Shown: piece after piece, positions 2,986-56,281 of the stretch | Layout of the letters: each line of letters starts with the position of its first letter | Position numbering within the stretch: position 1 is the first letter of the stretch | From: Brachycybe producta | Lineage: Eukaryota > Arthropoda > Diplopoda > Playtdesmida > Andrognathidae | NCBI GenBank assembly: GCA_036925085.1 | Contig: JAUPFP010000003.1 | Location: forward strand, 2,967,001 to 3,031,000 | Reading direction: 5' to 3' | DNA length: 64,000 nt | Notes under the pieces: model-generated | The model's database searches: none | What the model was told of the DNA's origin: nothing | What the model saw: only the letters and a program-made list of their open reading frames with translations | Made by a program: the position numbers and the translations under genes

Positions 2986-3221
2986 TTTCGTAACGACCAC
3001 AACGATGTTGTCGTTAACGAGAAAAAAAAAAGTACCGATTTTCGAGAGAGAAAGTCTTGTCTGTCTCCGTACTGCCAACAAACATTCCTCATATCCCGTT
3101 TGATACTTCAGGATGCAACTGTAAGGACTGGTGTGGCATCACGAGAGAAAAGTGAAGCAAACCAAATTGAGAAATCATAATTTGGTTGGAATGTTTTTTT
3201 TTTGACTTTCGAACTTTTAAT

Positions 3222-3515
3222 TATTCTGTCTTTTAGAAGAGCAAAATTAAAAGAAACTAGAAAGTTATTTAGAGACTAGAAAGGTAGCTCAATCACTTTC
3301 GGGTTTAAAATAAACTTTTTTTTAGACGAAAATTAAAAAAAATGTCGCATAAAAAGTTCATTTTGAAAGATATCAACATGAAAATATCCTTAAGTGATTG
3401 AGCTACCCCTTCTAGTTTCTAAAAACACTTTCAAGTTTCTCTTCATTTTGCACCTGTACCGACAGAATAATGAAGAGTTCGAGAGGCCCCGTTTACACGT
3501 TAAAACCACGCCAAG
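3222..3515. mobile_element. Family A MITE, full length
   Basis: A palindrome of about 290 bp. The left arm runs from the outer ctgtcttttagaagagcaaa through agactagaaaggtagctc. The right arm holds aagtgattgagctacccctt, ctagtttct and gagttcgagaggccccgttt. It lies 240 bp downstream of the GT10 stop codon. Confidence 0.85.
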
Positions 3516-3749
3516 TACGAAGTTTTGTTGTACAAAAAACAACTTTCCATTATTTTCAATATTGGAATTGATTTTCTAGTCTGCATATCGTCACAAGTTT
3601 GTCAAGATAATCAAAGATTTCGAGAGCATAATATATAATGATAATAATAATGGTATTATTTTTCGTTCTTGTTGAAAACATGAATTTTTGTCTAAGGCCC
3701 TTTTCTGTAGGGCCCGGCCCACCTCACTGTCCACTACTAAGGCCCTTGG

Positions 3750-3830
3750 CCAAAGCCGTAACTAGGGAAAGGCGAGCGAGGCACCTTCCTCGGGCGCAAA
3801 GCTCAGTTAGCTAGTTATGGCTTTTCTCTG
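3750..3830. repeat. Small inverted repeat
   Basis: ggccaaagccgtaactag near the left end is complementary to ctagttatggctttt at the right. It resembles a MITE of about 80 bp. Confidence 0.5.
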
Positions 3831-3844
3831 TGGCACAAGGAAAA

Positions 3845-3982
3845 CGTTTCGACTGCAAAATGAAGTCGGGTTGTCGCCAAAACAGGCCACTTTGGCCTCT
3901 TGTGGACCACATTCTAACCATCGCAGTGGACTCGAAAGTGGTCGGTTTGGGCGACAACCCCGACTTCATTCTGCAGTTCGAA
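3845..3982. mobile_element. Palindromic MITE, about 50-bp arms
   Basis: ttcgactgcaaaatgaagtc, gggttgtcgcc and cactttgg on the left are matched in reverse complement by cgaaagtgg, gggcgacaaccccgacttca and ttctgcagttcga on the right. Open frames across it come from this symmetry. Related words occur at 63755-63800. Confidence 0.8.
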
Positions 3983-4204
3983 AAGTGGGCCCAGGTGCTA
4001 AATATACGGGCCTAAAGTAAGTCGGTAAGGGATTGGGATCGGTCGACTCAACCTGAGAATTACATTCCATAATTGTGTCCAGTGATAAAACTAATGAATC
4101 GAAAATATGAAGATACAATGTATTGTATGTATATATAGAGGTAGCTCAACAAAGAGCTATTACCAATAAAGTATGGAGCATTTTATGACATAGTTGAATG
4201 CAGT

Positions 4205-4218
4205 CAATAGATGGCGCC
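4205..4218 (+). promoter_or_regulatory. CTCF-like core motif
   Basis: tcaatagatggcgc matches the AGATGGCGC core of bilaterian CTCF sites and the extended CAATAGATGGCGC form found elsewhere in this window. Confidence 0.35.
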
Positions 4219-4295
4219 ACTTCTACATAAATATTTGTAAAGCAAACCTTGTGTAATATGTTTGGTAAAACCGGCCATGTTCGTTTGTCACCTCA

Positions 4296-4442
4296 CAGCT
4301 TCTAATTGGCTAGTTATGAAGTCTGACGTCACATGCTCCGCCCTTTTCAACGTCAGACTACATAACCAGCCAATTAGACGTTGCCAGTCGTCATAACAAG
4401 GGCGGAGCCAACTGAAGTTTTCACTTAATTCTAACAACCTGT
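4296..4442. mobile_element. Family B MITE, left end truncated
   Basis: Contains cttctaattggctagttatg, a central tgacgtcacatgctccgccc, and a right arm ending aattctaacaacctgt. The outer left arm is absent. Confidence 0.75.
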
Positions 4443-4534
4443 GTCCAAATGGACTATTCTGGATCTGATATAAATCTGCTCTTACTCTATATTGAGACGT
4501 CATTGCAGAAAGCAATGACGTCATTGTGCATTTC

Positions 4535-4640
4535 TTTAATTTTATTGGGGTCTATGGGATCAATAGAAAAATGATACTAGCGCTCTTTGTGGAGTTTTTT
4601 CAAAATAATTTTACGATGTAGCCTCTTTAAAAGCTCATTC
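4535..4640 (+). repeat. Family F terminal fragment
   Basis: tctatgggatcaatagaaaa, tagcgctctttgtggag and cgatgtagcctctt match the right end of the family F copies at 35095 and 51636. Confidence 0.7.
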
Positions 4641-4792
4641 ACTCAACGTCATTTTTCTCTAACATGGAATTGAGCTACCTCTATGTATTTATTATAGAAA
4701 ACACTACTCCCCAATAATTTTTACTGGTCAGTTCATAAAGAGAATGGTCCGTGGTCAAGTTCTTCTATAAAAATAGTTATTCCATTGCCCAG

Positions 4793-5023
4793 ACTAGCAT
4801 TAACCCATTAGAATTTTTCATAGCGCATGCGCATTGCCGTCCATCGATTTCTATAGGAAAGTATTGCAGATTTGCGCTAGCAGCGCCATCTATTGATCAC
4901 CAATGAAACCTGTCGATGAGACGTTCACGTAGGGGTAGTTTTCACTTGTCATCCCTTTCCTATATAAAACGATGGACGGCAATGCGCATGCGCTATGAAA
5001 AATTCTAATGGGCTAATGCTAGT
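4793..5023. mobile_element. Family G MITE
   Basis: Near-complementary arms of about 65 bp: actagcattaacccattaga with catagcgcatgcgcattgcc on the left, mirrored by ggcaatgcgcatgcgctatg with tctaatgggctaatgctagt on the right. The spacer holds gcgccatctattga at 4883-4896, a CTCF-like word on the minus strand. Confidence 0.85.
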
Positions 5024-5528
5024 ATTGTCCAGTCACTCTAGTCAAAAAAAATATCATGATTTTAATTAATTATGTGTATTACAGGTCAATTTTGCACATT
5101 TTTAGCAGATTTTTTTAATCGCATTATGTAGAAGGTTCTCTGAGCCCCTTATAATTCATGGGCCACGGGGGGCCCCATCTTACAAGTTACACCTCAATAC
5201 AAACATTTGTATAAAGAAAACGCGTTCTCTTTGTTTTTGTTTTGAGTTTTAAATGTATTTTTCTTCTCTCTAAATATAGAGTTAAAAGTTGTTAATTTTT
5301 ATCATTTTGTTGTTCAAATTGTAAAATCTATATATTTATTATGTTTGCGTATCAATAGTGATCAATTTTTTTCTTCTTCTTCTTCTCGAGTGTGTTTTTT
5401 TAATTGTTAAAAAGCAATTATTGCAGGTATCGCATGCTAGTTGGTGCATCGGATAATCAATTTTGCTATCCGCTGATAACCGGATATACAATTTTATTTT
5501 TCTGAAAAATACTTGTATAAATTGCAAG

Positions 5529-5543
5529 GTAGATGGCGCCTGC
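5529..5543 (+). promoter_or_regulatory. CTCF-like core motif
   Basis: gtagatggcgcctgc contains AGATGGCGC. It lies outside any recognised MITE. Confidence 0.3.
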
Positions 5544-5602
5544 AATCTCCATAGGTGGCAAACTACACTCGCCGCCAGTTGAAATCGAATGCAGTCTTTT
5601 AG

Positions 5603-5702
5603 ACAGGCAATTAGAAAACGGGATAAACAGACGTTGGCTCTGCCCTTTTTACGGCGAACGCAACTTCTAATTGGTTGGTTATGTAGTCTGACGTCACATG
5701 CT
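5603..5702 (+). repeat. Family B MITE, left arm only
   Basis: acaggcaattagaaaacggg followed by the usual arm, ending at the central ctgacgtcacatg. The right arm is missing and unrelated sequence follows. Confidence 0.75.
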
Positions 5703-5794
5703 TTTTCTGCGCGCCATCGCTGCCAATGATTTTGATTTCGCCGCCGCCGCCGATGATTTCATTTTCCTAGTCGGCTCCCACCTTTATATCTGAA

Positions 5795-6070
5795 GAGCAA
5801 AACTATCAAACTTGTTTTAGAAACTAGAAGGGTAGCTCAATCACTTAAGCGTATTTTCAAGTTGATATCTTTCAAAATTAACTTTTTATAGGCAAAAATT
5901 TCGTCATTATCAAACTGACATAAAAAGTTTATTTTAAAAGATATTAACTTGAAAACACGCTGAAGTGATTGAGCTACCCTTCTAGTCTCTAAAACACGTT
6001 CAAGTTTCTCTTAATTTTGCATCCGAAAGACAGAATAATCAGAATTCGAGAACCGTTAACAATTTAAAAG
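5795..6070. mobile_element. Family A MITE, full length
   Basis: ttagaaactagaagggtagc at about 5817 and agtgattgagctacccttct at about 5962 are the inner arms. The outer arms carry agagcaaaact and aagacagaataatcagaatt. Confidence 0.85.
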
Positions 6071-6124
6071 CAACTTACGCAAAAAAACTAAAATAAAACA
6101 TATATGACGAACAATTATTTTAAT

Positions 6125-6680
6125 GAAGTTCATTTTTGGCGCCAAATTTTTCATTTACCTTAAAACAGACGACGCCGTCGAGAAGTGTTTGATATACTTT
6201 TTTTTTACATTTACGAGCGCAACTAACAACTTGGTAGCGCGATAGAAATATAGTTTCGCAAAAACTTTGATAAATTTCACATTTTCATTCTTTTTTACAT
6301 AAAAAAATCGAGAAAAACAAGAAGTTAACAAAGAAAAGTGTCCGAAGTTGAAAGTTAACTTGCCTCCATGTTGTGACGTCACATCACTGTTGCCAACTAC
6401 TCAGCTTTTCATTATTTGTAGTACAGTCAATAGATTTGACTGACAATAAACCAAAGCTTATGACGTCAGCGGGGTTGAGAAAATATAGAATTATATGAAT
6501 TTATATCATTATGTTTGACTCAAAAAGTGTAATAACAAAATAATGCAAAAATCAATTTGTTTCGATTGTTGTAAACGTTTGATATCATCCCTTATCTATT
6601 ATATTAAATGTTACAATCCTAAATTTCTTTTGTCAACCCCTTGTACGTCACAAGTTTAATTTTATGGTAAAGCAACTATA
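6125..6680 (-). repeat. Family J CRE-rich repeat
   Basis: Shares several blocks in inverted orientation with 25840-26380: ggcgccaaa with aaacagacgacgccgtcg, ccatgttgtgacgtcac, tgacgtcagcggggttg and gtcaaccccttgtacgtcac. The two copies are diverged. The coding potential is not convincing. Confidence 0.55.
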
Positions 6681-8215
6681 AATAATTGTTTTTATAAAAT
6701 TAAGTTTGTCTGTTATTTGAATATATTTTTAGCTTTCTAAAGAAATTATTTTTTATAATTTTCTTCAATGAGAATTGATCATATTTATAAAGAAAATTAT
6801 TTTAATAGAAACAATTTGTTTTTGCGTAGCTGGCAACAGCGACAACCTTTAAAATATCGATAAACGTCTACATACTGAAGCGTTTTATTTTACACTCAAT
6901 GACATCTCGTCACATACAATACGTCAAATAATTGAAGTATAAAAGGTGTACGAAAATGGCACCTATAATATAATAAAGGGTAAAATCGCCATATTCATCA
7001 ACCTCTTCGTTTACATAATGCTTCAATTTTGCAAGAAAAAATGATAGCGCATGCCTTTCATTAAAAACTGTAACACACAATGACTTTACGTCACGTTTAT
7101 GATTATCTTTTTTGACATAAGATAACTAATATGGCGTATGTTACTAATTTACTACGTTGAATTACACGAAAATAGCCGCCATATTGGAATAACCTTTTTT
7201 CATTAATTTATCTTCCGACCTGACGTCAGATTTATACAAATTTAAAGCAACACTATACCGCTAAAGATAAATCGATGTATAACGGACTGTGCTAATTGTA
7301 ACAAATTTATTCATCCATATGACGTCACATCAATTTTACGTCACCATGTTGATTAAAAATAACGATAAAAAATGCACAATAAAATTACGTCATGACCTTT
7401 CTGATTATTGAATTCATTTACGTAAAAAATTTTTCCACATCACATGGTTGATAAACGTCATTGTAGAAATTGAAGCGGAGTTTTTTTTTTAGAGCGTGCC
7501 TTCCTTGACGTATTTATAATATCCAGACATACATAAGTCATAATAAAATCTCGTGAAATCTCGCGAGAAACACTTGGCAAACTCGAGCGATCTATAATTT
7601 TTTTTTATTCCTCTCTCCGTTGAAGAACAATAAAAAGGCCGTTTTCCTCAGGTAGGAGCTGAATTTTTTTATGTTTTTTCTTACTTATTTACATTTTAAA
7701 CAAATCTAAAACGTTTCATTACTAATTGTTAATACTATAACATCATTCATATATAGTATATTCAGTAAAAAAACATTATTTTTCATCTAAAAATTAGAAA
7801 TTACTTTGTATAAATGGAAACACAGATGAAGAAAAAAAAATCCATTGGTTATTTTCAATGGCCGACATGACAGTTAAAAAATTTCCTCATCTTTTTTTTC
7901 TGCATTTTATACCAAAAACAATTCATTCTTTTCTGACCGGAAACGATAGATATATCGTAACTACATTAATATGCAAGAATTTTTTGGAAACTTTAAACCT
8001 GCGTTTTTCATTTTAAAAAAGCGCTTTTAAAAAAAAAAACAACTAGAAAGCGGCTCGCGAGCCATTTTTTTTAAAAAAGTCTTTTTTTTAAAATAATTTT
8101 CTTTCTATTACGTCATCGTTAAACAAAAGATATTTCTTTGCTCGTGCAAGCGGTTTGTGTGCACGTTAAGAAACGATGACGTCACCATTGTTTCTATGTG
8201 AGGTGCATTGAACTG
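6681..8215. other. Unassigned AT-rich stretch with many CGTCA words
   Basis: No coding exon was recognised. CRE-like words recur: cgtcacata near 6907, ctgacgtcag near 7220, atgacgtcaca near 7319, acgtcatga near 7388 and gatgacgtcacc near 8176. Between them are A/T runs. Confidence 0.5.
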
Positions 8216-8217
8216 AC

Positions 8218-8370
8218 AAAGAGGAGGGAGGAGGAGGATAGGGGGGAAGGTGGTGGGATAGGAGGAAAGGGGTGGTGGTGGGTGGAGAGACGTTGAGTGA
8301 CCTTCAGGAAGATTTCGAGGGAATTTTTTTTTTTTGAAAGGTGGGTGGTGAGGGGGTGGGTGGATGGGAA
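8218..8370 (+). repeat. G-rich purine tract
   Basis: Dense gaggaggaggatagggggg and ggtggtgggtgg runs on the + strand could form G-quadruplexes. This is low-complexity sequence, not coding. Confidence 0.7.
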
Positions 8371-8662
8371 GATTTCGAGTTTGATGACTTTTAATAGTGA
8401 TGGTTAGTCAACTTTTGGCACGCGAGCCAATTGATTCTCAACATCATTTTGGCTCCGCGAAAGAGAGAATGCGCGCGTTGAGAAAAGATGAAAACGTGTG
8501 ACGTAGTTTTTCTTTTGTATTATTCGTAAGCCGCTGAGCACGTGCCGCGTGGTTGTCTCTCTCACTCGATGTAAACAAAAGAAAAATGTGTTGCGTTGGT
8601 GTAGAGAGAGTTGATTTTTGAATGAAAAGGGGGGTGGAAGGAAGTTGTGCATTTATAATTAA

Positions 8663-8985
8663 TAGAGCTCGGATTTTTATGCAAATATCAAAGCAAAATG
8701 TTTCTCAATTTGTGGCCCAAGAGCCAATTGCGAAGTAACCAATCTCCTATTTAGAAGAATCAATCAACAATTGAGGTTTTATTTTTCAAATCAAAAACAC
8801 TGCTTAGAGGCTAGAATTTTCAAGTTGACAACTGATAGTAACTAGACATTTTAGCCTCTAACCAGCCCTTTATGATTAGAAAGAAAAAAAAAAGCATAAT
8901 GTTGATGATTATTACTTCACAATTGGCATTTGTAACCACAAATTGACAAACATTTTGCTTTGATATTTTCATTAAAATCCGAACC
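8663..8985. mobile_element. Family C MITE
   Basis: Starts gagctcggatttttatgcaa and ends in the complement (tttgatattttcattaaaat, then ccgaac). Inside are tgtggcccaagagccaattg and a second inverted pair, tagaggctagaatttt/tagcctctaaccag. A nearly identical copy follows at 9022. Confidence 0.8.
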
Positions 8986-9021
8986 CTATTTATGATGATG
9001 CATTTTTATGAAACAATTATT

Positions 9022-9332
9022 AGGACTCGGATTTTTATACAAATATCAAAGCAAAATGTTTCTCAATATGTGGCCCAAGAGCCAATTGCGAAGTAACCAA
9101 TCTCTCCCTTTAGAAGACCAATCAACAATTATAAATTTTTCAATGAAAAAACATTTAGTTAGAGGCTAGTACTCTAGTTGACAACTGATAGTAAACAGAC
9201 ATTTAGCCTCTAACCAGCGTTTTTGAATAGATTAAGCAATAATTGCAGTTGTTCTAATGAGATAATTACTTCACAATTGGGCCACAAATTGTGAAACATT
9301 TCCTTTTGATATTTGCATAAAAATCAGAACGT
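9022..9332. mobile_element. Family C MITE, second copy
   Basis: Starts ggactcggatttttatacaa and ends tttgatatttgcataaaaat. It has the same internal inverted repeat as the 8663 copy and lies 36 bp after it in the same orientation, so a tandem duplication is possible. Confidence 0.8.
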
Positions 9333-9818
9333 TGATAATTAAGTCCAAAAATGGACTCTTCTTTCATTCAACCCTTTTAATTTTACGGTTTTTACCCTCC
9401 ATTCCTTCCCTCTCTTTATAAGAAGAGTCCAAGTTTTACTCTTGTTTTTTGAGGTCATTGACAGGAGACATAATAATGAAAGGAAGGAAGGAAGGAGGGG
9501 GGGGGGGGGAGAAACTTTAAAGAGAAGCAATTCCGCAGTGTGATAAGCTCCGCCTCCTCACACAGTTTGAAGAAGACGTAGTTAAGTTTTAATTGGCTCC
9601 TTACACTTCGAATTATGTTCTCATTGTTTTTTTTTAAATTTTAATGGAGCTGTATTAAGCTCCGCCCCAATCTTAGTGTTTGTAATGGAGGGGACCAATA
9701 AACTAATCCCGTTTGATGCTGCTTATAATGAAGCTGTAATTGGCTCCTCCCACTTCCAATTACGGCTAATGAAACAATTTTTAAACTTCTCATTGGGTTT
9801 AAAGAAGCTGTATTAAGC

Positions 9819-9993
9819 ACAAGCATGTAAAGACAGGGAGAAGCAGACGTTTGCTCCGCCCTTTTATAAGCGTCAGACCAAATATCAAGCAATTAGAAAT
9901 TGAAAAGGGCGGAGCATATGAGGTCAGACCACATAACAAACCAATTAAAAGTTGCCAGTCCTCATAAAAGGGGCGGAACAAACGTTTGCGTGT
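9819..9993. mobile_element. Family B-related MITE at a shared target site
   Basis: The arms include gcagacgtttgctccgccct and its mirror ggggcggaacaaacgtttgc. It is flanked by GTATTAAGC at 9810-9818 and again at 9994-10002. Confidence 0.75.
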
Positions 9994-10002
9994 GTATTAA
10001 GC

Positions 10003-10208
10003 ACAGGCAATTAGAAATCGGGACAAACAAAAGTTGGCTCCGCCCTTGTTATGAAGACTGGCAACTTCTAATTTGTTTGTTGTGTGGTTCGTCGTTGAAA
10101 AGGGCGGAGCATGTGACGTCAGACTACATAACCAACCAATTAGAAGTTGCGGTCGTCATAAAAAGGGGCGGAGCCGACTTCTGTTTGTCCCGATTTCTAA
10201 TTGCCTGT
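10003..10208. mobile_element. Family B MITE, full length, with 9-bp target duplication
   Basis: acaggcaattagaaatcggg at the left and cccgatttctaattgcctgt at the right, with tgtgacgtcagac in the centre. It is flanked by GTATTAAGC at 9994-10002 and 10209-10217. A 9-bp duplication fits Mutator-like (MULE) transposition, which is an inference because no transposase is present. Confidence 0.88.
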
Positions 10209-10419
10209 GTATTAAGCTCCTCAGCATTATTGTTCGTAATGGAGGAGCCAATAAACCAATCCTGTTTGTGTGTTACTTATATTGTGAGCTGTAATTGGCT
10301 CCTCCCACTTTCAATTACGTCGAAGAAAAATCCTCCAATGGAGAAGCCGTTTTAAATTCATGAATCATGATTTAACAAAAACCAATTAAAAAGCTTTTTA
10401 AAAGCAACTTACGACAAGA

Positions 10420-10615
10420 ATTTGAAACTTATTTGAAACTAGAAGAGTAAACGAACACGAAAATGTAATTTACACAATGATTATAATCTTTAAAAATAAA
10501 CTTTTTACTGTAATTTTTGGAAACCGTAAAATTGTTATAAAAAGTTTTATTTTTTTTAAAGATATTATAGAAAAATTATCTATTCATCTTAGTTTACTGT
10601 TCTAGTTTCTAAAAA
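10420..10615. repeat. Family A-related MITE, diverged
   Basis: ttgaaactagaagagtaaac at the left and agtttactgttctagtttct at the right form a palindrome resembling family A. The interior differs (aaataaactttttactgtaa). Confidence 0.65.
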
Positions 10616-10629
10616 AATAAACAAAAGAT

Positions 10630-10826
10630 ACAGGCAATTAGAAATCGGGACAAACAGAAGTTGGCTCCGCCCTTTTTATGACGACCGACAACTTCTAATT
10701 GGTTGGTTATGTAATCTGACTCCGCCCTTTTCAACGCCAAACCACACAACAAACCAATTAGAAGTTGCCGGTCGTCATAAAAAGGGTGGAGCCAACTTCT
10801 GTTCGTCCCGATTTCTAATTGCCTGT
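10630..10826. mobile_element. Family B MITE
   Basis: acaggcaattagaaatcggg at the left and cccgatttctaattgcctgt at the right, both intact. The central CRE word is lost (taatctgactccgccc). It sits beside the diverged family A copy. Confidence 0.85.
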
Positions 10827-11284
10827 AGAAAATAATTTTTATAATTAGCCTCCTCCTTCCACTCTTCAATTCAAGGAAAATTCTATTAAGCTCCGCCCAA
10901 CTTCAACTAAGCACCTCCCACTTTTTCAATTGTTTTTCAAGACAGGCAGGCAGTTGGTCCACGTGGAGCCAGAAAAAAAATTCTGTTAGCCCCGCCCTTT
11001 TATGAGCAATCATCAGACCAATAACAAACAGAATCAAACGCGTAAAAAACCTAAATAACCAATGAGAACGAACTTTTCTGGCTGCGTCCCTCAGCTGCTT
11101 CTGTTTTAAAGTGGTTGTGTGAGAGACTATTTATGTCAACAAAAAAAAGTTTAATGTAATTTTGACATAAATGGCGCTTCATACGTAGCAAAATCTTATT
11201 TAAAAAAAAAAACGCTTTTTGTAATAAACTTTTAACTCGTTTTTTTTTTTAAACTTTTTTTTAGTTTTTCGAGGATACATTTAA
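10827..11284 (+). promoter_or_regulatory. Presumed eIF4G2 upstream and 5' leader region
   Basis: Holds a decayed family L unit near 10850-10950, then unassigned AT-rich sequence. A pyrimidine run ending ttttttttag (AG at 11263-11264) lies 69 bp before the GUG candidate. It could be the acceptor of a leader intron or a trans-splice site. An in-frame stop (TAA, 11282-11284) closes the frame upstream. No TATA box is clear. Confidence 0.4.
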
Positions 11285-11332
11285 ACATTCGTTGGGCCTT
11301 TTACTTTTCGGAGCTACGATCTTGATCTTCCC

Positions 11333-11359
11333 GTGGCGGGCCACATAGTCTTAAAGACG
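11333..11359 (+). promoter_or_regulatory. EIF4G2: Non-AUG start region of eIF4G2
   Basis: From the in-frame TAA at 11282 to the end of exon 1 there is no in-frame ATG, yet the frame encodes GGASRCSGG, matching the start of vertebrate eIF4G2 (GGASRFS). Two candidates are in frame: GTG at 11333 and ACG at 11357. ACG aligns without gaps to the vertebrate GUG and has A at -3 and G at +4. GTG at 11333 has the conserved codon but C at -3. Exon 1 ends in phase 2 and fits the next exon (AG+G = Arg). Confidence 0.8.
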
Positions 11360-14300
11360 GACGGGCAGAGAGGACCGGGTGGTGCTTCTCGATGCTCGGG
11401 AGGAAGGTCTGTCTTGTCTGAACTTGTTTTCTTTCCAATAGATCCGCCATTTTTTTTATTTCTAACCATAATTCTTTTTATTTACATTTTTCCTTGCAGT
11501 ATAGCTCCTCCCCTTTTTACTAACTCCGCCCCCTTTAAAGAGCGTTACAGGGAGGTTGATTCAGTTCCTTTTTGCTGATGCTCAAGATAATTTTTCCCGC
11601 TTCTTTTACTGGTGTTTAGCACTTAACCTGGTTTAGGATCAGCTGATTTATGATTTCTGATTTATTAATCTGTCTTTCAGGTCAACTTTCAAAGTGTTTT
11701 AGAAACTAGAAGGGTAGCTTCAATCACTTTTACGGCCATTTTCGTGTTGATGTCGTTCAAAATAAGCTTTTTCCTAACCAAAAATTAAAAAAAAAACATT
11801 GCTTAAAGTTGGGTCGTTTTAAAACTGACATTAAAAAGTTTATTTTGAAAGATATCAATCAAAAATCTGAAAAAAATCCTTAACTGATTGAGAGCTACTC
11901 TTCTAGTTTCTAAAAAAAAAAAACTTTCTAGTTTTTTCTTAAGGTGATTTTAAAGTGTAAACGCCCCTTAAATTAATGATTATTCTGTCTTTCTGGTGCA
12001 AAATTAAGAAAAACATTGAAGTGTTTTAGAAACTAGAAGGGTAGCTTCAATCATTCATGTTGATATCTTTCAAAATAACCTTTTTTAAAATTTCAAAATA
12101 AGCTTTCCAAAAATTAAAAAAAAAATTATCGCCTGCTTTAAAGTTGGATCATTTTAAAACTCAAATAAAAAAAGCTTATTTTGAACGATATCAACATGAA
12201 TGATTGAAGCTACCCTTCTAGTTTCTAAAACACTTTCTAGTTTTTCTTAATTTTTTGCTCTTCTGAAAAACAGAGAAGTAATCAAAGTTAGGAAACGCCC
12301 CCTTCATTATTACACTCCGCCTCCTCTCTAAATAGGTGTTCCAATAATACACAGGCAAGTGTGCTCAGCAGAATACAATCGTTTGCCCCGCCCCCTTGGT
12401 TTGTTTTTTGGTCAGATGTGTCACATGCCCCGCCCTTTTCAATTTCTAATTAGTTGATATTTTATCTGACGATCATAAAAGGGGGCGGGGGAAACGATTG
12501 TAGGGTGCTGAGCACACTTGCCTGTGTCAATAATACAGTGTTTCACTTTGGTTTTTATTTTTGGTGTCAAGGGTTTGGAATTTCTAAATATTTATTCTTA
12601 TCGTGACCTAGAAATTGTTTATAATCAACAATCACAATAATAAAAACAAATGTTAGCACAAAAAAAAGTGGATTACTAGATCACCGATTTTTATTATCAG
12701 ATTCATTTCAGCATACGATGAGATTGGAACAAGTAAATATACACAGTGGAAACAAAAGTTTAAAAAAGCCTCTTATCACACTAGCAACCTCCAATGCAAT
12801 TCAACTTGCAATGCAACCTGTGATGTGACTTTGCAACTAGAACTTTGTAATAAACTTCTATATCACACTATATGCAACCTCTAGTTCCCAATCAAGTTTT
12901 CAAAACTTCGTTTATGTCAAGGGAATCGACACATTCTGGTGAATCTCGTACGGTGGTATCGGAAGATATTTTACTTTTAATCTGCGTTTTACTCAATGTT
13001 AAAATTTCAATTCTATTCTGGATTATCCAAGTAAAAATGCAGCTAAAAAGTAGAATGACTTTCCATCCACACGAGGATCTGCTGTCAATCTTAGTGAAAA
13101 TCGTACTTATGATTTTCTTCAATGTCTGCCCCCTTGGTTTGTGTGTCCATATTGGGATCAACTAACAGGAAGTTCATAAACCGGAAGTCATGAAACAGGG
13201 AATTCGTTCAATGTTACATATATGTCATTTCTGGCAAACGACCTGATTGGTTGTTTGTCAGAAAGTTGACTTGAAAAAGTCTCTCAAAGTTGAACCTGTT
13301 CAACTCTGTGAGACTTGAGTTTGACACTAAGTTGAAAGGAAAGTTTCATCAAAAGTTGCATGTTGCGTATCACACTATAAACATTGAAGTTGCAATGTCA
13401 CATTGCACGTTTTATTGCATTAAAAGTTGCTAGTGTGATACGGGCTTTATTCTATCAAAGTTTCATCGAAAGTCTCGCAGAAGTTGAACATGTGCAATTG
13501 AATGCGAAACTGAGTCTTATCACTCATCATGTGTTTTCCACTGTTCTCCCCCCCCCTTTAAAAGTGGGCCTTCTGGGGCCGAGCCCGGCCCACTCATCAG
13601 GTTAACCCCCTTAATTCATTTGATTTTAATGTATGGTGCTCGCGGTTTTTAATGATTTCTGACATTTTTGGAGGTAAAATCTGTATTTGTTTTCCGTTCA
13701 GGGACGAGCCTCAGCGTTCCCTGGCCGCTAGCGTTGCCCAACAGGCTATTCGCAGATGGGTCCCTCCGTCAAGCATTAAACGAGATGCCTTCACCCAACA
13801 AGAAAAAAATGACCTCGTTTTCCGCAGAGTGCGTGGGTGAGTAGAGAGTTCCCCCCATATTACCCCTCCTCCTTAAGTCTCACCGTACGTTCAACGGTTT
13901 TGGACTTTAGGAATGTACAAAACTGATTACCCATTTTTTTGTTGTTGTTAAAAATAAAGAATTCTTAATAAACTCACCCCGGAGAAATTCCACAAGTTGA
14001 GCAATGAGTTACTTCGGACCGGCTTAGATTCTCCGACCATTCTCAAAGGTGTCATCTTACTGGTGAGAGACTTGCTCGATTGGAACGATTTTTTCAGTTT
14101 AGAGCAGTTACTGTTGCGAACTGGGCTGTCGTCGGCAGTAGTACAGTTCGGTTTGTAGCAGCTGCTGTTATAAACTATACTGTGGCAGTGGCGCGGTTCG
14201 ATTTATAGTGGATTTATGTTTGAGAGCAGTTCTAGTTCTAAATTGGACAGTGGCACGATTGAGTTCCGAGAAGTTCCTGTTGTAGACCGGACTGTGACAA

Positions 14301-14933
14301 TGGCACGGTTCCATTTATAGCAGATGGTGTTGTGAACTGTGACTGTTGCATCAATGGTACTGTTTGGTTTAGAGCGGTTTCGGTTGTAAACTGGACTGTG
14401 GCAGTAGTACTGGTCTTAGAGCAGTTCCCGTTGTAAATTGGACACTAGCGCGGTTCATTTCGGAGCATTTTATGTTGTAATCCAGCTGGTACAGTTCGGT
14501 TTAGAGCTGTTAATGTTAGTAACTGAATAGTGGCAATGGTACGGTTTTCAATTGAGAACATTTTGCTTTTATAAATCGAGCCAGAAGCTGCCTCTTCCGT
14601 TCGTTGCGTGCAGAAAGAGAGTAACAAGTAATCCGTCTTCTTTTCAATCACAAAGATCTTTGAAAAAGCCCTCGATGAACCCAAGTACAGTTCTATGTAT
14701 GCGCAGCTATGTCGCAAACTATGTGAAGACGCTCCAAACTTTGAGAAGCAAAGCAGTGCCTCCGTGAGTTGCCCGTTATCCCTTTCGAGAACGACTAGAA
14801 CGTTTCAGATTTGATTTGTAACGTTGCGTAGATTTTCTTTGTGCAGACATTCAGACGCCTTTTACTTAGCAAGTGTCAGGACGAGTTCGAAAACAGAAGC
14901 AAAGCGACAGAAGGTACATTTTTGCAACCCTGG

Positions 14934-14972
<39 letters not shown>

Positions 14973-17900
14973 AACTTACTTGTATTTCTTTGTGACACCG
15001 CAGCGTTCGATAAGAAAGATGGACCGCTTACGGCAGAGGAGGAGGAGCAGCGTACGCTCGCAAAGCATAAGATGCTCGGTAACATCAAATTCATTGGCGA
15101 ATTGGGCAAACTCGAAATGCTCCACGAAAGCATTCTTCACAAGTGCGTCCAACAACTGCTGGAGAAGAAAAAACAGAGACGCGGTTACGGAATCAAAGAT
15201 GTTGCCGAGGACATTGAGTGCCTCTGTCAGATAATGAGAACCTGCGGTCGTATCCTTGACACTGATAAGGCACGATCGCTCATGGATCAGTACTTTGATC
15301 GCATGAAGACGCTCGCTAACAACCCTGAGCTTCCGTCGCGTATACGCTTCATGTTGCAGGACGTACTGGAGTTGCGCGAGAAGAAGGTAACTTCTTACGA
15401 GAAAAGATCAAGTCGCTATACGTCGAACAACTGTTGGATGGAGCTTTAAAACAGCTTTATGAGCAACTAAACTGTAAAATATGCAAATGAAAGCGAACGA
15501 CTGGTTATTCTGCTGCGTTTTCGGAAGAGCAACACTAAGGAGAAACTGAAAGTGTTAGAAACTAGAACGGGTAGCTGAATTACTCAACAGTATTTTCATT
15601 TTTGTTATATTTCAAAATAAACTTTTTATGGACAAAACTTGAAAAATATTGTCTACTTAAAAGTTGTGTTAATTTAAAACTGACATAAAAAGCTTATTTT
15701 GAAAGATACCATTCTAGTTTCTAAAACACGTTCGTGTTTATCTTCATTTTGCATCCGATTGCAAAATAACACAACGGAATCGAACTCCGGTTATTTTATG
15801 TTTTAAAAGTAACATTAATAAAGAAATTCAATTGAGTTTTAGAAACTAGAAGGGTAGCTCAATCACTTTAGGGTATTTTCACGATTATTATCTTTCAAAA
15901 TAAGCTTTTTATGTCAGTTTGAAAATGACTCACCTTGAAGCAGACAATATTTTTTAAATTTTTGTCAATAGAAAGTTTATTTTGAAAAATATCAACATCA
16001 AAATAACCTCAAGTGATTGATCTAACCTTCTAGTTTCTAAAACACTTTCAATTTCTTTTGAATAAAGAATAATCACTTCTAGCGACATTTCGACATGAAT
16101 GTCACCTTAAGAATTTAGTAGTTGCTTGACGTCGACGAAACAGTTGCTAACAATCGTGTAGCAAGGGAGAGAAAACACAAGACTTACGTTCTGTTTCTTG
16201 TTTAGCGTTGGGTCCCACGTAAAGTCCTTACGGATCACGGTCCGAAAACAATTCAGCAAGTCCGTGAAGAAGCCGCAAAGGTAGATCTTCGGAAGACGAT
16301 CGGTTAACTTTTTCCTTACCGAATTATCTTTTTTTTCCGTTTCAGGACTTCGGCTATTACATACCACCTCCGAGCACCGGACGGAACCCAACAATGGGAA
16401 TTGCACCGAATTATCGTGGCTCGCGAAGCCGTGGTGGCATGGATGATGTTTTCGGACCAGTTGGTTTGTCATTATGTCTTTTTAGAGACGGGAGGATTAA
16501 AAGTACGAAACTGAAAATAGATGAATTTTGTTGTTGTCTTTTAATGAAGAGGGTTTTAATCTCGGAACTGGACCCGGAGTCATTGCAAACGATCATTACA
16601 ATGGTTTCACTCCTAATCATGTTGGACGTCAGAACCGCAACAATATTCCTGGTTCCGGTAGGTTCTATTTTTGGTCGCTTTTCCTGTGTTTGCATTTTAC
16701 GCTTTCAATAATTATGTTAATAAAAAGTCATGCAATTGAATGGAAATCTTCGTTATAATGCATTTTGGAAGCAACATTAATAAGAAATTGAAAGTGTTTT
16801 AGAAACTAGAAGGGTAGCTGAGTGACAAAAGAATATTTTCATGTCGATATCTTTCAAAATAAACATTTTACGGACACAAATTTAAAAATATCGTCTGCTT
16901 AAAGATAGTTTATTTGTAAACGGACATAAAAAAAATTTTATTTTGAAAGATATCAACGTGAAACTTAGTTTCTGAAACACATTCAAGTGTCTCTTAATTT
17001 TGCTCTTGTAAGACAGAATAACCAAAATTCTAAGATCGCTATGTTTTTCTAATAAGGTTCGTACTCCATGAGTGGCGGCAGCGGTGGTCAGATGCCGATG
17101 TCTCTTCTATATCCGAACCGACAGAATATGTCGCAAAACAGCCACAATAATCAATACACTTCACAGCAACAGCAGCAGCAACAACAACAACAGTTGCAAC
17201 AACAACACGGTTAACACACAAAGAAAAACAAAAAAAAAACAAGCTCCGAACTTGCATTTATAATAACGAGGTCGGTTTCTTCTCTTGTTCGCTCGTTAAC
17301 AGGTGTGAAAGATCTTCCGCCGCGTTTTATGAAGAAATCTCCTTTGTCGAGCAATTTGGACGACATAAGTTTACGTCCAGCTCAGAATTCGATGATGTTG
17401 AAGCCAAAAATACCGAGTTTCTTGTCGAAATCGGTCAGTCCGGTTACAAACCAGGTTCCGTTGTCGCTCAACAATCATCAAGAGAACAATACATTGCAGC
17501 CGCAATCGTTAACCAATCAGAAACCGAATCCGAATCTGAATCCTCTTCTCAAAGAGGTTTTTTTCTAAATCACTGGCGTTTTTTTTTCCGCAATACTTTT
17601 GCGTTTCTAATGTGTTTTTTGTGTCGGCAGAGTAACATATTGATCAAACAGACCTCAATCGATAAAAACAAAGTAAACAAAAAGGATCTCGGACCATCGA
17701 AGTCTGAGACTTTAAAGACTTTGGTAAACGAACTTACGGAAAAGATCGTTCGATCGAATGCTAAATTCGGTATTTTCTTTGCAGGAAAATTATCTTAACG
17801 AGTTCTTAACCAGTCAAGACACAACTAAAGCTATCGAATTCATTAAAGAATTGAAAGCACCGAAGAAGTTGGTTATTTTTCTTACAAATTCTGTTCTTTC

Positions 17901-20165
17901 GTTCGATTGTTTTTCATTCGATTCTTTGCTGTCTTATTTAGTTACATGTCTGACATTGCTCTTCTCCTGATGGTGAAAACATTGGAGAAATCAGGTGAAA
18001 AAAATCGTTTAAAATCAATGGTTAAGTAACGAAACTAAACGACGTTACCTTTAATTGCAGACAGTGACCGTGACCTCGTCAGTAAACTAGTATCGTTGAT
18101 GAAGAAGGAGGATATCTTGGGATCGACTCACTTCATCGAAGTTCGTTAACGGGTTCTCTCTTCGTGTTTGAATTAAATTTCCGTCTTAACGTCTTTTTTT
18201 CTCTTGTCCTTTTCAAGGGATTCAAGATCCTTGTTCAGCAGATGTCGGAACTGGAATCGGATGTTCCACGTGTGAAGTCTCACGTTGCCGGGTTCGCTGC
18301 CCGTGCGATCGTAGAGGATCTAGTGTCGTTAGCCGATGTCGCAGGTTATGAAAGTTCCTTTCGTGTTTTGAAATCGAATCTTGGTGTGTTTTTTTTTAAC
18401 TTTTTTTGTTTCAAATCGATACAGAACCTCTAGAGAATGGATCTCACTATCCGTTGTTCTTACTGTGTCTGCAGCAACTTCATAAACTGCAGGGTAAACA
18501 ATGGTTAAGTACGACTTTTAATGAAAGCAAAGTCAACTTACAGAATATGTTGCCTGGTCAGTTTTGATACCAATTTGATTTTGTTGCTCTTTCGCTCGCA
18601 TTTATGGCCAAAGTAACGAGTCTTGTTATTTTCTAAATAGAAATCGATCGTAGTAAGGAACGTCTGACCGACATTCTCGAAGATCGTGGACTCAGTTTTC
18701 TGTTTCCGCTCTTGCGTATTCAAGCGGATCTTTGGAAACAGGTAAACCGAAGCCAAAAAACGGTACACTTCTAACTGTTAACATATGAGGTTGATCGCAG
18801 CGGCGAGCTGACAAAAGTAACGCTGCGCTAAGCTGCAAAATTAATGCCGCGGTGAAAGTAATGCTGTGCTCAGCTGACAAAGTAACGCCGCGGCGAGCTG
18901 CCATTAGTTACTTTGGAACAATTACTTTAAGAGAATATGTGGTGCACCAAATTAATAAGCCACAACTCAGTGATCTCGTACAAACTCCATTAATGTTTTG
19001 CAATCCAATTGTAATCTTGAAGATACAAGCCGATCAGAATCCGGGCGTCTTCTACAAATGGGTGAAGGAGAACGTCGACGTTTCTCAGCAGACGGCACCT
19101 GGATTCATAAATGCGCTAGTTTCATGGTACGTTCCTCCGCCTCTTTCATTCGTTACCTTTTTATCGCTAACCGGGTTAACGATTTCATAGTTTGTTGAAG
19201 TACATTACGTTGAGGTCTACTTTGGCCGAAGGCGTCGATCTAAGTGTTGCTCCGGACAAAGCTTTAGTAGAAAAAGAAAAGGAATTGTTAGAGAAATACA
19301 AGGTCTTTTTTTCGTTCGTTTCGCTTTTCATTCTTGTTTCTATTCGAAATTGATGATCGTTTTTGTGTTTGTTTTTCTTGAAGCCGGTTTTCCAGTTATT
19401 CTTACACGATCACATAAACCTACAAGTCGTTGCGCTTTACGCACTTCAAGTTCACTGTCATAACTACAATTTTCCGAAAGGTTTGAACTCTGTGTTTTAG
19501 TTAAAACAACAAGGGTGGTGATTATTTAACGGGTTTTATAAACAGCTGATTATTGTGTCTTTCAGATGAGCAAAATGAAGAGAAACTGGAAAGTGTTTTA
19601 GAAATTAGAAGGGTAATTCAATCACTTAAGGCTAACTTCATGTTGCTATCTTTTAAAATAAACCTTTTAAAGACCAAAATTTATAAAATATCGTCTTGAT
19701 TAAAGGTGAGGCATTTTCAAACTGACCCTAAAACGTTTATTTTGAAAGATATCAACATAAAAAAATACCCTTCAGTGGTTGAGCCACCCTTCTAGTTTCT
19801 TAAACACATTCAACCTTCTGAAAGACAGAATAATCAAGAGTTCGAAGCCGCTTTACACTTTAAACCTTTTAAGTGTTTTTTTCTTTCGTAATTAAAAAGG
19901 AATGCTTCTACGTTGGTTCATGGCGATGTACTCGCAAGATCTAATCGAAGAAGAAGCGTTTCTAAAATGGAAGGAAGATATAAGCGATCAGTTTCTCGGA
20001 AAGGGAAAAGCTCTTTTTCAGGTTTCAATGATATCGAACGAGCAAACGTAATCAAAGTTAGTTAACTTTTTTTTAACTCGTTATCTTTAACAGGTAAATA
20101 CTTGGTTGACTTGGTTGGAGGAAGCCGAAGAGGAAGACGAAGCTTCCGATGATGGAGACAATTAA
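11333..20165 (+). CDS. EIF4G2: Eukaryotic translation initiation factor 4 gamma 2 (DAP5/p97/NAT1)
   Basis: An eIF4G relative lacking the eIF4E-binding region; it recruits eIF4A, eIF3 and eIF2 for cap-independent or eIF3d-dependent translation in the cytoplasm. 23 coding exons join in phase: 11333-11406, 13702-13836, 13960-14062, 14656-14763, 14847-14913, 15004-15386, 16206-16280, 16346-16459, 16552-16657, 17057-17209, 17303-17556, 17631-17723, 17785-17867, 17942-17994, 18061-18140, 18218-18344, 18425-18556, 18641-18741, 19023-19126, 19191-19302, 19384-19480, 19900-20021, 20094-20165. The product is 907 residues from ACG 11357 or 915 from GUG 11333; human is 907. Counting from ACG: MIF4G at about 62-290 (ILNKLTPEKFHKL, GNIKFIGELGKLEMLHESIL, LEDP-type helices), then a linker with GTGPGVI, a poly-Q run and DLPPRF/ISLRPAQ, MA3 at about 525-650 (FAARAIVEDLVSLADVA, HYPLFLLCLQQLHKL), and W2 at about 720-900 (FYKWVKENV, LYALQVHCHNYNFPKGMLLR) ending in the acidic WLTWLEEAEEEDE. 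Exon edges are inferred from splice sites and homology. Confidence 0.97.
11665..11944. mobile_element. Family A MITE in eIF4G2 intron 1
   Basis: agtgttttagaaactagaag at the left and actcttctagtttct at the right, with ataagctttttcc and aaaagtttattttgaaagat as the inner arms. Confidence 0.82.
11945..12300. mobile_element. Family A MITE, second copy in eIF4G2 intron 1
   Basis: Follows the first copy directly. Its outer left arm (gattattctgtctttctggt) starts where the previous outer arm ends. The inner arms are gaaactagaagggtagcttc and gaagctacccttctagtttc. Confidence 0.8.
12351..12527. mobile_element. Family B variant MITE (ACAGGCAAGTG type)
   Basis: acaggcaagtgtgctcagca at the left and tgctgagcacacttgcctgt at the right. 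Inner arms are caatcgtttgccccgccc and its mirror. The flanks share CAATAATAC (9 bp), a target duplication as in the main family. Confidence 0.82.
12765..13452. mobile_element. Non-autonomous DNA element with TCACACTAGCAAC ends
   Basis: Ends are cttatcacactagcaacctc at about 12772 and the complement agttgctagtgtgatacggg near 13427. Sub-terminal gcaatgcaac words recur at both ends. Small internal frames show no transposase. It lies inside eIF4G2 intron 1. Confidence 0.7.
14101..14560 (+). repeat. Degenerate minisatellite in eIF4G2 intron 2
   Basis: About nine copies of a unit of roughly 45-55 bp built on agagcagtt, gttgtaaactgga, tgtggcagtggcac and ggttcggttt. It fills most of the 593-bp intron (14063-14655). 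Confidence 0.8.
14914..15003 (+). other. EIF4G2: In-frame 90-bp intron of eIF4G2 holding a GA microsatellite
   Basis: The intron runs from gtacat to cgcag. It is 90 bp, a multiple of three, and has no in-frame stop. Retention would insert 30 residues, including an Arg-Glu repeat from the GA run at about 14938-14968, between exons encoding MIF4G helices. Confidence 0.75.
15520..15800. mobile_element. Family A MITE in eIF4G2 intron 6
   Basis: gttagaaactagaacgggta at the left and ataccattctagtttctaaa at the right. Outer arms carry aagagcaacactaaggagaa and cttcattttgcatccg. With the next copy it fills the intron. Confidence 0.82.
15830..16075. mobile_element. Family A MITE, second copy in eIF4G2 intron 6
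   Basis: agttttagaaactagaaggg at the left and taaccttctagtttctaaaa at the right. Two palindromes in one 819-bp intron (15387-16205) would each fold in the pre-mRNA. Confidence 0.82.
16785..17025. mobile_element. Family A MITE in eIF4G2 intron 9
   Basis: gtgttttagaaactagaagg at the left. The right inner arm is shortened (aaacttagtttctgaaacac), followed by the outer ttaattttgctcttgtaaga. Confidence 0.8.
17164..17205 (+). repeat. CAA/CAG run coding poly-Gln in eIF4G2
   Basis: Ten glutamine codons, one Leu, then three more Gln at the end of exon 10, in the disordered linker between MIF4G and MA3. The CAA/CAG mixture suggests an old, partly stabilised microsatellite. Confidence 0.9.
19545..19885. 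mobile_element. Family A MITE in eIF4G2 intron 21
   Basis: tgttttagaaattagaaggg at the left and agccacccttctagtttctt at the right, with outer arms gtctttcagatgagcaaaat and tctgaaagacagaataatca. It accounts for most of the 419-bp intron. Confidence 0.82.
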
Positions 20166-44794: not shown

Positions 44795-45175
44795 ACGATT
44801 TGAAGCATTTGCTTTGACTTTTATTTTATGTGACAAAAGATTTGCTTTTACTTTATGCTACATAGCATTTGCTTTGACTTTTACTCTATGCTACATAGCA
44901 TTTGCTTTGACTTTTACTCTATGCTACATAGCATTTGCTTTGACTTTTACTCTATGCTACATAGCATTTGCTTTGACTTTTACTCTATGCTACATAGCAT
45001 TTGCTTTGACTTTTACTCTATGCTACATAGCATTTGCTTTGACTTTTACTTTATGCTACATAGCATTTGCTTTGACTTTTACTCTATGCTACATAGCATT
45101 TGCTTTGACTTTTACTCTATGCTACATAGCATTTGCTTTGACTTTTACTTTATGCTACATAGCATTTGCATTTGA
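44795..45175 (+). repeat. 33-bp tandem array, open in more than one frame
   Basis: About nine near-identical units of agcatttgctttgacttttacttatgctacat type, with only C/T changes, plus degenerate copies at the left. Because 33 is a multiple of three, two + strand frames stay open (FALTFTLCYIA and MLHSICFDFYS repeats). No codon signal or domain supports a gene. Confidence 0.9.
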
Positions 45176-50240: not shown

Positions 50241-50480
50241 TTTTTCAATGGTTAATATCTTAAAAAGTAAACGATATTATAGTTCAGTTTGAAAAATGAC
50301 TCGTTTTTTCGGTTTTTCTATATCGATATTTCATGAAAATATTATTTTCGCCTTTTTCAAACTGTGATAAAAAGTTTATTTTGAAAGATATCATCATGAA
50401 AAAAACTTTTAGCATTATCGCCAACTATTCTAGTTTCTAAAACACTTCTAGTTTTTTGTTATTTTTCTCTCCAGAAAAAG
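50195..50480. repeat. Family A-related MITE, diverged
   Basis: aaaactagaatggtaaaaga at the left and ccaactattctagtttctaa at the right. The centre has two sets of inner arms. Confidence 0.6.
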
Positions 50481-50999
50481 CCGCATTCTAAAAATGCGAT
50501 GCTTTAAAAGTTGAGCTTTTAAATCTTTCTATGACTCATTACATTGAAAAAGTATTTCATTTTAAGTTTAGCTTTATTTTAAGCAATGTTTTTTTAAAAA
50601 AATACTGTATAGTAACCAAATTTCGGAAAAATCTGATTTGTTGCCGAAAAAAACGTAATAACGATGGTTCCTCCCTTCAAATTCCAGAAAAAGAATTTTT
50701 GAGTTATTTCCACACAAAATTGGATGTAAAAATATTCACGGATGAACGAAATATGGAAGTTATGAATAATATTATTACTTTCACCGTGTAAAATGGTCAC
50801 ATTTGCCGATGTTGTCGTCGTCATCATCATCATCATCACCGGACATTGTCCACTGATGACCACAACGTTATCGCATAAAAAGCGATGATGAATAAAGATG
50901 GATGAAAATTCATAAAAAGAGAATAATATTTTATGCAGAAATTGCATATAAAAATCATCAAAGTGAAAAATAAGTCATTCTGCAAAATGACTAGTGAAA

Positions 51000-51500
51000 T
51001 CTAGATTTCACCCCTTCTAGTTTTTTGTTAGGTTATTTTCAAACTAACATAAAAAGCTTATTTTGAAAGATATCAAACATGAAAATACCCTTAAGTCATT
51101 ACAGGAGAAACTATAAAGTGTTTTAGAAACTAGAAGGGTTATAGCTTGAATGACTTAAGGGTATTTTCATGTTTAATATCTTTCAAAATAAGCTTTTTTT
51201 AGTCAGTTTAAAAAATGGTCCAACTTTTAAGTTATAAAATGTTTATTTTGAAAGATATCAACATGAAAAATACCCTGAAGTGATTGAGCTACCCTTCTAG
51301 TTTCTAAAATACTTTTCAAGCTCGAAGAGCTAAATTAAGAAAAAATTGAAATTGTTTTAAAAACTAGAAGGGTAGAGATCAATCTTTTATGGCTATTTTC
51401 ATACTCTTCTAGTTTCTAAAACATTTTCTAGTTTCTCTTTTGTTCCTGAAAAAAACAAAATAATTAGTGGTTCGAGAGACGCCTTTTCACTTTAAAACCA
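51000..51500. repeat. Cluster of three family A copies
   Basis: Arms near 51015-51105, a complete palindrome 51113-51325 (ttagaaactagaagggttat to gagctacccttctagtttct), and a short copy near 51350-51450. Confidence 0.8.
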
Positions 51501-51514
51501 CCTTAAGAAAAACT

Positions 51515-52500
51515 TAAAATGTGTTTTAAATACTAGAAGGGTAAGAGCTCAATCGCGTAAGGGTCCTTTTAATGTTGATATAGTTCAAAATAAAACTTTT
51601 TATACATACACTTAAAATATCGTCTGTTTAAAGTTGTCATTTTGTATCACAAAAATTCTTTGAAAAATCTCCGCAAAGAGCGCTAGTATCGTTTTTCTCT
51701 TGAGCCCATAGACCCGATGTTAAAGAAAAAATGTTTAATTTTTAAAATTACACAGTTGCGACGGCAATATGTTTATTTTTCATATTTAAAGTTGTCCAAT
51801 TTTAATGGTTCAAAGTGCAATGTACACCTTAAATATATGCTGATCGAGTGATAGAATGACAAAAAATTGGTAAGTGCGGTTCTATTTTTAAAAAACTATT
51901 TCAAAATCGCGTATTTTTAACTCTTTATGTTAAACTCCATTGAGTACGCGCGCTCATAAGCAAAAAAAACATCCATTAAAATGTTGGTAAAAAATACCTA
52001 AAAAATAATTTTAAAAAACCACAATTAAACCACAGTGAAGCCAACACATTGGCGCACGTGCTGAATTTTTTTCTGGTTTTTTAAAATTATTTTTAGGTAT
52101 TTTTACGAGCATTTTAATGAACGTTTTTTGCTTAAGAGCGCGTACTCAATGGAGTTTAACATAAGAGTTAGAAATTCTCGATTTTGAAATATGTTTTTTA
52201 AAAATAGAAGCACACTTTCCAATTTTTTGTCATTATATCACTTGATCAGCATATATTTAAAGTGCACATTGTACTTTGAACCATCAAAATTGGACAACTT
52301 TAAACATGAAAAATAAACATATTGCCGCCGCGACTGCTGTGTATTTTAAAAATTAAACGTTTTTTCTTTAACATTGGATCTATGGACTCAATAAAAAAAC
52401 GATGCTAGCGCTCTTTGTGAAGAATTTTCGAAGTAATTTTGTGATGTAGCCTTTGAAGTGATTGAGCTACCCTTCTAGTTTCTAAAAACACATTAAAAAA
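51515..52500. repeat. Family A MITE split by a family F element
   Basis: The left part 51515-51635 (ttttaaatactagaagggta, then aaaatatcgtctg) and the right part 52453-52500 (aagtgattgagctacccttc) are halves of one copy. Confidence 0.78.
51636..52452. mobile_element. Family F long palindromic element, whole
   Basis: About 817 bp with near-complementary halves: tgaaaaatctccgcaaagag, cgtttttctcttgagcccat and tgtccaattttaatggttca on the left, mirrored on the right up to ctctttgtgaagaattttcg. Two flanks of family A show where it landed. No protein frame. Confidence 0.88.
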
Positions 52501-52599
52501 TTTTTTTTTTCAAATTACTTTTAAATTAATTTTTTTCTCATAAAATATAATCATTTTGATTGAATATGTTTAGATATAAATAAATATATATATTTTAAT

Positions 52600-52835
52600 A
52601 TCGCTAACATTGCAAAGTGACGTGTACGCGCATAATTAGCATAATCTGTCACGTCCTCTGCATTAATTACTAATCTCTTGTTAGTCATCAACTGGAGGAA
52701 ATTAATCAAGTGAAGAGATGGTTTTATCGGAGTTTAGTAAGCGAAAAACCGGAAATTCATCGCCTCGCCACATTAATCTCTCTTTCCATTCATTCGATGT
52801 GTGTGTGTTTATACATAATATGCAAATTAAAACAC
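52600..52835. other. Non-repetitive island, possible regulatory region
   Basis: gcgcataattagcataatct, ctgcattaattactaatctc and ATGCAAAT at 52820, with little low complexity. No exon or splice support. Confidence 0.3.
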
Positions 52836-53064
52836 ATTAGAATAATGAACATCAGCAAAAACAACAAAAAAAAAACAGCTAAAACACAAAACAGCTAAAA
52901 TACAATTTTCCTATCAAAGCTTTTATTGAAAAGAAAAAATCACAAAATTCAAAAAGCTTTCTTGAATTTCAAATCAATATTGAATTTATTGTCACAACAA
53001 TTTCAGGAGACGAGAAAAATTTATTCAAAATTTGACAAAAACGATTGGCTTGGCTTTCATTTAA

Positions 53065-53880
53065 ATTGGTTCCGAAATCTAGAACACAAAACCTTCTAAA
53101 AGTGGTTAATTTGCAACCAAAGCCTTAACAAAGTAGTTAATTTCAAACTAAAGCCTTTAGAAGGTGGTTAATTTGCAACAAAATACCCAAAAAACCTTCA
53201 AAACGTAATTAATTTGCAACTAAAGTTTTCAAAAGTGGTTAATTTGAACTCAAAATCTTTAAAAAGGTCGTTAATTTGCAATAAAAACCATCAAAATGTG
53301 TTTAAAGTTACAATCAACGCCTTTAAAAGGTGGTTAATTTCCAATAAAAACCATAAAAATGTTTTTAAAGTTAAATCAGAGCCTTTCTTTAATAGGTGGT
53401 TAAGTTTAAATGAAATACCCAAACCCGTCAAAAGGTGGTTAATTGGCAACCAAGGCCTTTAAAGGTGGTTAATTTGCAAACAAGGCCTTTAAAGGTGGTT
53501 AATTTGCAAACAAGGCCTTTAAAGGTGGTTAATTTGCAAACAAGGCCTTTAAAGGTGGTTAATTTGCAAACAAGGCCTTTAAAAGGTGGTTAATTTGCAA
53601 ACAAGGCCTTTAAAAGGTGGTTAATTTGCAAACAAGGCCTTTAAAAGGTGGTTAATTTGCAAACGAGGCCTTTAAAAGGTGGTTAATTTGCAAACGAGGC
53701 CTTCAAAAGGTGGTTAAAGTTACAATGAAAGCCTTCAATAGGTGGTTAAGTCTTAACCAAAGGTTTCAAAAAGTGGTGATTTTTGCCAAAAAAAAAAAGG
53801 ACCAAAGCCTTCAGAAGGTGGTTCATTTGAAACCAAAACCTTCAAAAGGTGTTTGAGTTGCAAACAAATTTTAGTTGCAA
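53065..53880 (+). repeat. 30-31-bp tandem array (GGTGGTTAATTTGCAAACAA)
   Basis: Degenerate copies from about 53080, then nine near-identical units at 53460-53705 (aaaggtggttaatttgcaaa, caaggccttt), degenerate again to 53880. Confidence 0.9.
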
Positions 53881-54775: not shown

Positions 54776-54779
54776 AACT

Positions 54780-55175: not shown

Positions 55176-55189
55176 TAATCCACAAAGCC

Positions 55190-55612: not shown

Positions 55613-55659
55613 TTGAAACAGCTCTTTTCTCTCTAATAAAAGGGGATGAAAATTGTGTA

Positions 55660-56267: not shown

Positions 56268-56281
56268 AATAGATGGCGTAA
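56268..56281 (+). promoter_or_regulatory. CTCF-like core motif
   Basis: caatagatggcgta shares the extended CAATAGATGGCG form. Confidence 0.28.

Follow-up and report, generated by a model that had tools for sequence, protein, structure and literature searches.

The plus strand of the window (the whole 64-kb stretch of DNA analysed here) carries an intact eIF4G2 (DAP5/NAT1) gene with 23 coding exons, whose reading frame runs from 11285 to 20165. The exon junctions of this model were picked by hand from the frame, the splice signals, and the similarity to the human protein. Four open frames were submitted to Pfam and one of them was matched, to MIF4G (9.6e-36). In the comparison with PDB chains, the predicted protein is closest to human eIF4G2 (3l6a, 2.3e-121; 4iul, 1.7e-99), followed by eIF4G1 (6zmw, 1.2e-75). 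Both the MIF4G and the C-terminal regions are nearer to eIF4G2 than to eIF4G1, and the C-terminal part, which presumably consists of the MA3 and W2 domains, matches 3l6a. As regards an N-terminal extension of the eIF4E- and PABP-binding type, the frame is shut upstream by the TAA at 11282, and a candidate acceptor at 11314 lies past this stop. A CAG/CAA run encoding polyglutamine (17160-17209), whose length may vary, closes exon 10.

A search of the 295-Mb genome with the protein places 21 of the 23 matches listed in the eIF4G2 locus. The other two, near 1.82 and 1.83 Mb of the same contig, match a MIF4G stretch at 38% identity and look like eIF4G1-type exons. One copy of eIF4G2 is seen among the matches listed, none of these 23 is a retrocopy displaying the mature 5′ end, and the DNA of exon 1 has a single match, which is its own locus. 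Elsewhere in the window, a plus-strand frame at 2566-2985 corresponds to Glyco_transf_10 (fucosyltransferase; E 1.6e-27), the only match of seven frames scanned, and probably belongs to the neighbouring gene upstream. A tandem repeat whose unit encodes ICFDFYSMLHS lies at 44834-45175 of the plus strand and is open in two overlapping frames of that strand. No RNA families or tRNAs were found in the window.

Table 1. Features at the 5′ end of the eIF4G2 gene and coding exons of the model (window coordinates; contexts scored out of seven).
Feature	Position	Strand	Remarks
In-frame stop TAA	11282..11284	+	5′ of the candidate start codons
Exon 1	11285..11406	+	Read from the base following the TAA up to the donor AAG/GTCTGT; 11285 is the limit of the frame, not a mapped 5′ end
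Possible 3′ splice acceptor	11314 (first base after)	+	Score 4.4; past the TAA, would permit an upstream exon
GTG	11333..11335	+	Alternative or secondary start; tcccGTGgcg, C at -3, G at +4, 3/7
ATA	11345..11347	+	In-frame near-cognate; context 4/7
ACG	11357..11359	+	Proposed main start; aaagACGgac, A at -3, G at +4, 6/7
GGASRCSGG codons	11378..11404	+	Resemble the human eIF4G2 N-terminus
ATG	11392..11394	+	First ATG past the candidate starts; out of frame; ctcgATGctc, 3/7
Exon 2	13702..13836	+	Spliced gene model
Exons 3-23 and introns	13960..20165	+	End at TAA 20163-20165; MIF4G by Pfam

Exon 1 itself offers no in-frame AUG. The in-frame TAA reported in the preliminary description is present, and from this stop to the donor after 11406 the genomic exon contains no in-frame ATG, as was also reported there. 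On the plus strand between 11172 and 11391, no ATG starts in any of the three frames. The ORF of the out-of-frame ATG at 11392 has 14 codons when read by eye and is closed by a TAG in exon 2. The first in-frame ATG of the spliced frame is found at offset 399 from 11285, which is codon 110 if the ACG at 11357 is counted as codon 1, and sits inside the stretch aligned to the MIF4G domain of human eIF4G2. Between the upstream stop and the conserved coding sequence there is no in-frame AUG in the genomic DNA, provided that no upstream exon is joined past the TAA, and a non-AUG start of this eIF4G2 is well supported.

Exon 1 as drawn is likely to be real in view of its donor score, its phase, the GGASR 5-mer, and its codon use taken together. 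Evaluated with a matrix built from the other 21 donors, its donor scores 7.8 and leads all 22 donors of the gene. On both strands of the window, 55 of 6523 GTs reach this value, and among the 157 GTs from 10830 to exon 2 only one, after 13600, outscores it (7.9 vs 7.8). The exon ends in phase 2, the phase required by exon 2, in agreement with the preliminary description. In human eIF4G2, GGASR lies seven codons after the GUG start. The sequence GGASRCSGG had been read as a match to the start of vertebrate eIF4G2; the reading of the frame is correct, but the similarity alone is weak evidence, because 22 of 3915 phase-2 GT sites on both strands of the window (exon 1 included) score at least as high against the human N-terminus as exon 1 does, and so do 2284 of 20000 shuffled exon-1 peptides. 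Among the 432 phase-2 GT sites upstream of exon 2, the exon-1 donor ranks fourth, level with a second donor that follows the identical peptide. Four of the 3915 sites share an exact 5-mer with the human sequence: two are donors that follow the GGASR peptide, and the other two come after GGGGS, which is unrelated. In a codon-use test trained on exons 2-23 against introns, the frame looks coding in 11309-11356 (+4.0 bits) and in 11357-11404 (+5.3 bits), but not in 11285-11332 (-7.1 bits). Stretches this short make the test noisy: one of the wrong frames scores +4.8 bits in 11285-11332.

It could be supposed that the first coding exon lies elsewhere and that GGASR is a chance match, for which the nonsignificant similarity score would speak. 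The top-scoring donor, the correct phase, and the fact that GGASR stands behind no phase-2 site other than the two donors following the exon-1 peptide make this highly improbable. A further alternative is an upstream exon with an ordinary in-frame AUG, spliced past the TAA, for instance at 11314, in which case there would be no non-AUG start at all. Nine AGs were scored in 11180-11400, six of them past the TAA, with values of 4.4 (11314), -1.0 (11357), -3.8 (11349), and, for the remaining three, -6 or lower. The real acceptors of the gene have left-out scores from -2.3 to 10.9, and 5 of the 22 are under 4.4; since the value at 11314 is within this range, an upstream AUG exon could be joined there, and the coding-like codon use from 11309 fits such a junction. 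An acceptor at 11357 is conceivable. The T-rich AG before 11265 was discarded as an acceptor, with a score of just 0.85 and a position 5′ of the TAA. However, AUG-bearing single exons of the right phase with a donor score of at least 5 are few: there are three in 3000-11200 and four in 3000-13700, versus 13 in an equal-length reverse-strand control (complement of about 50300-61000), so that no excess is seen. One of the three is a lone Met codon within a repeat arm. This search covered single exons from 3000 on, with a donor threshold so strict that, by left-out scores, 8 of the 22 donors of eIF4G2 itself would fall below it. In addition, orthologues elsewhere are reported with non-AUG starts in passages of PMC9977666, and we consider an upstream AUG exon quite unlikely. 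A repeat search of 9000-13700 finds 9585-10827 packed with inverted and direct repeats of the mobile-element type, leaving about 450 bases of nonrepeat sequence between their end at 10827 and exon 1. Repeats also occur in intron 1, at 12000-12254 and 12349-12527; the palindromic, MITE-like units of the upstream region and of this intron measure approximately 180-255 bases.

Near-cognate initiation at the front of eIF4G2 is the best reading of these data. Four near-cognate codons precede GGASR in frame, GTG at 11333, ATA at 11345, AAG at 11354, and ACG at 11357. The choice between GTG and ACG offered in the preliminary description involves two codons which are indeed in frame, but ATA and AAG had been missed. 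AAG is described in part of PMC9789052 as essentially unrecognised as a start. The best mammalian non-AUG start is predicted in a passage of PMC9082881 to be (C/A)(A/G)(C/A)(A/C/G)CUGGAU. By this rule, which is mammalian and may not be the organism's own, the ACG has the best context among the 20 codons, near-cognates and AUG, that lie in 11264-11406; the two positions flanking it are as previously stated, and the runner-up is an out-of-frame ATT (5/7). Under the same mammalian rule, 6/7 is reached by 261 of the 9474 near-cognates on the plus strand of the window. The ACG is also seven codons ahead of GGASR, in agreement with the register with the vertebrate GUG that had been proposed. Given its better context and its alignment with the human start position, the ACG is clearly favoured over the GTG as the main start. 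The argument that translation from the ACG gives exactly 907 residues, as in human, is to be dropped, as the protein of the model has 909 residues when counted from the ACG and 917 when counted from the GTG, and equality of length would be no evidence anyway.

Main initiation at the GTG, with the ACG in a minor role, appears unlikely; the start would then be GUG, as in vertebrates, but displaced outward by eight codons. The GTG is the first in-frame near-cognate past the TAA, would be met by scanning ribosomes before the ACG, and has the favourable base at +4. Furthermore, GUG is placed above ACG in the ranking of non-AUG starts of human extensions given in part of PMC9789052, and the 8-codon segment between the two shows coding-like use in frame (+3.0 bits). 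On the other hand, it has C at -3 and less than half of the context positions, it is out of register with the human start, and in the predicted fold, where both codons are mostly paired, it is paired more strongly than the ACG (unpaired probability 0.16 vs 0.35). Folding of the leader as a whole is not exceptional (z -0.78). The stability of the 60 nt from +13 after the ACG is reached by only 2 of 87 other CDS windows, but it is explained by the G+C content, since 299 of 500 mononucleotide shuffles of the stretch are equally stable. RNA structure in the leader was rejected as an initiation enhancer, as it is no stronger than that of shuffles.

With moderate confidence, we propose that the eIF4G2 mRNA has no in-frame AUG at its 5′ end and that its main start is the ACG at 11357, regulated by the stringency of start-codon selection. 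The model builds on what the sequence shows, namely the frame, the stop, the splice phase, the codon contexts, and a genomic exon free of in-frame AUGs, and it would involve use of the ACG, leaky scanning, and a regulatory role. Scanning 43S complexes would initiate with Met-tRNAi mainly at the ACG, in its strong context, and minor starts may occur at the GTG or at the ATA. Ribosomes passing the near-cognates would reach the out-of-frame AUG at 11392, in poor context, whose short ORF yields no eIF4G2. As bypassing ribosomes would be lost to this ORF, the output of eIF4G2 would depend on start-codon stringency, that is, on the levels of eIF1 and eIF5. Further upstream, the ATGs at 11133, 11154, and 11171 (plus strand, 11133-11188) have frames which, read by eye, close within nine codons and would be leader uORFs if transcription begins farther 5′. 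It has been reported that the mouse eIF4G2 leader has translated short AUG uORFs (PMC4574750) and that eIF4G2 reporter expression from a GUG start responds very strongly to eIF1 (PMC10742948). By analogy, eIF1 sensitivity, uORFs, and leaky-start behaviour may likewise characterise this gene.

According to a review (PMC9977666, citing Takahashi 2005), the start of eIF4G2 is GUG in mammals and other vertebrates, and non-AUG codons likewise serve its orthologues in Halocynthia roretzi and Drosophila melanogaster. A non-AUG start in an invertebrate eIF4G2, such as the one proposed here, is thus of an already known kind; only the codon may be new, unless the codons of Drosophila and Halocynthia include ACG. 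Among the papers listed by searches on eIF4G2/DAP5/NAT1 and non-AUG or ACG starts, none mentions an ACG start for eIF4G2 in its title or in the opening of its abstract. Vertebrate EIF4G2 (DAP5/NAT1/p97) is the same gene, with a near-cognate codon equally far from GGASR. It differs in that the codon is GUG, here probably ACG, and in the residues preceding GGASR. Human EIF4G2 is also described in part of PMC9082881 as having a minor upstream AUU start and, 3′ of the GUG, a short out-of-frame AUG ORF, a feature shared with the gene described here. Human TRPV6, an unrelated gene, is similar in having ACG as the sole start of a protein, as stated in part of PMC9789052; the same source states that the preference for non-AUG codons in genes with no AUG to fall back on has still to be explained.

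It may tentatively be suggested, although we hold it to be doubtful, that the ACG occupies the homologous position at which vertebrates use GUG and that the conserved trait is a weak, stringency-sensitive start rather than the codon. If the codon varies among lineages and is always near-cognate and never AUG, the weak start itself would be the selected trait, and such a start would probably act as feedback on a factor which takes part in start selection. Pattern matches in the prokaryote and virus contig collections (163 and 23) include no confirmed relative.

Some observations on the mitochondrial sequences of this assembly are added here. Judged by general sequence features, the source is probably an arthropod, and one that falls outside Pancrustacea. 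Copies of mitochondrial COX1 are found on large contigs, at L003 (C1, 12697416-12698753) and at L004-L007 (C17). One of these copies is almost complete and has, apart from TGAs, a single TAA; the others are partial, and they are either numts or assembly joins. On the mitochondrial contig, 15359 bases long, the COX1 frame is open for 511 codons under code 5, and a COX2 frame comes after one stop codon. ND4L, ND4, and ND5 share the strand of COX1, and ND1 lies on the opposite strand, the genes other than COX1 being named by eye. This arrangement is unlike that of the Strigamia maritima mitochondrion, in which nad5-nad4-nad4l are on the minus strand, as given in part of PMC4368715.
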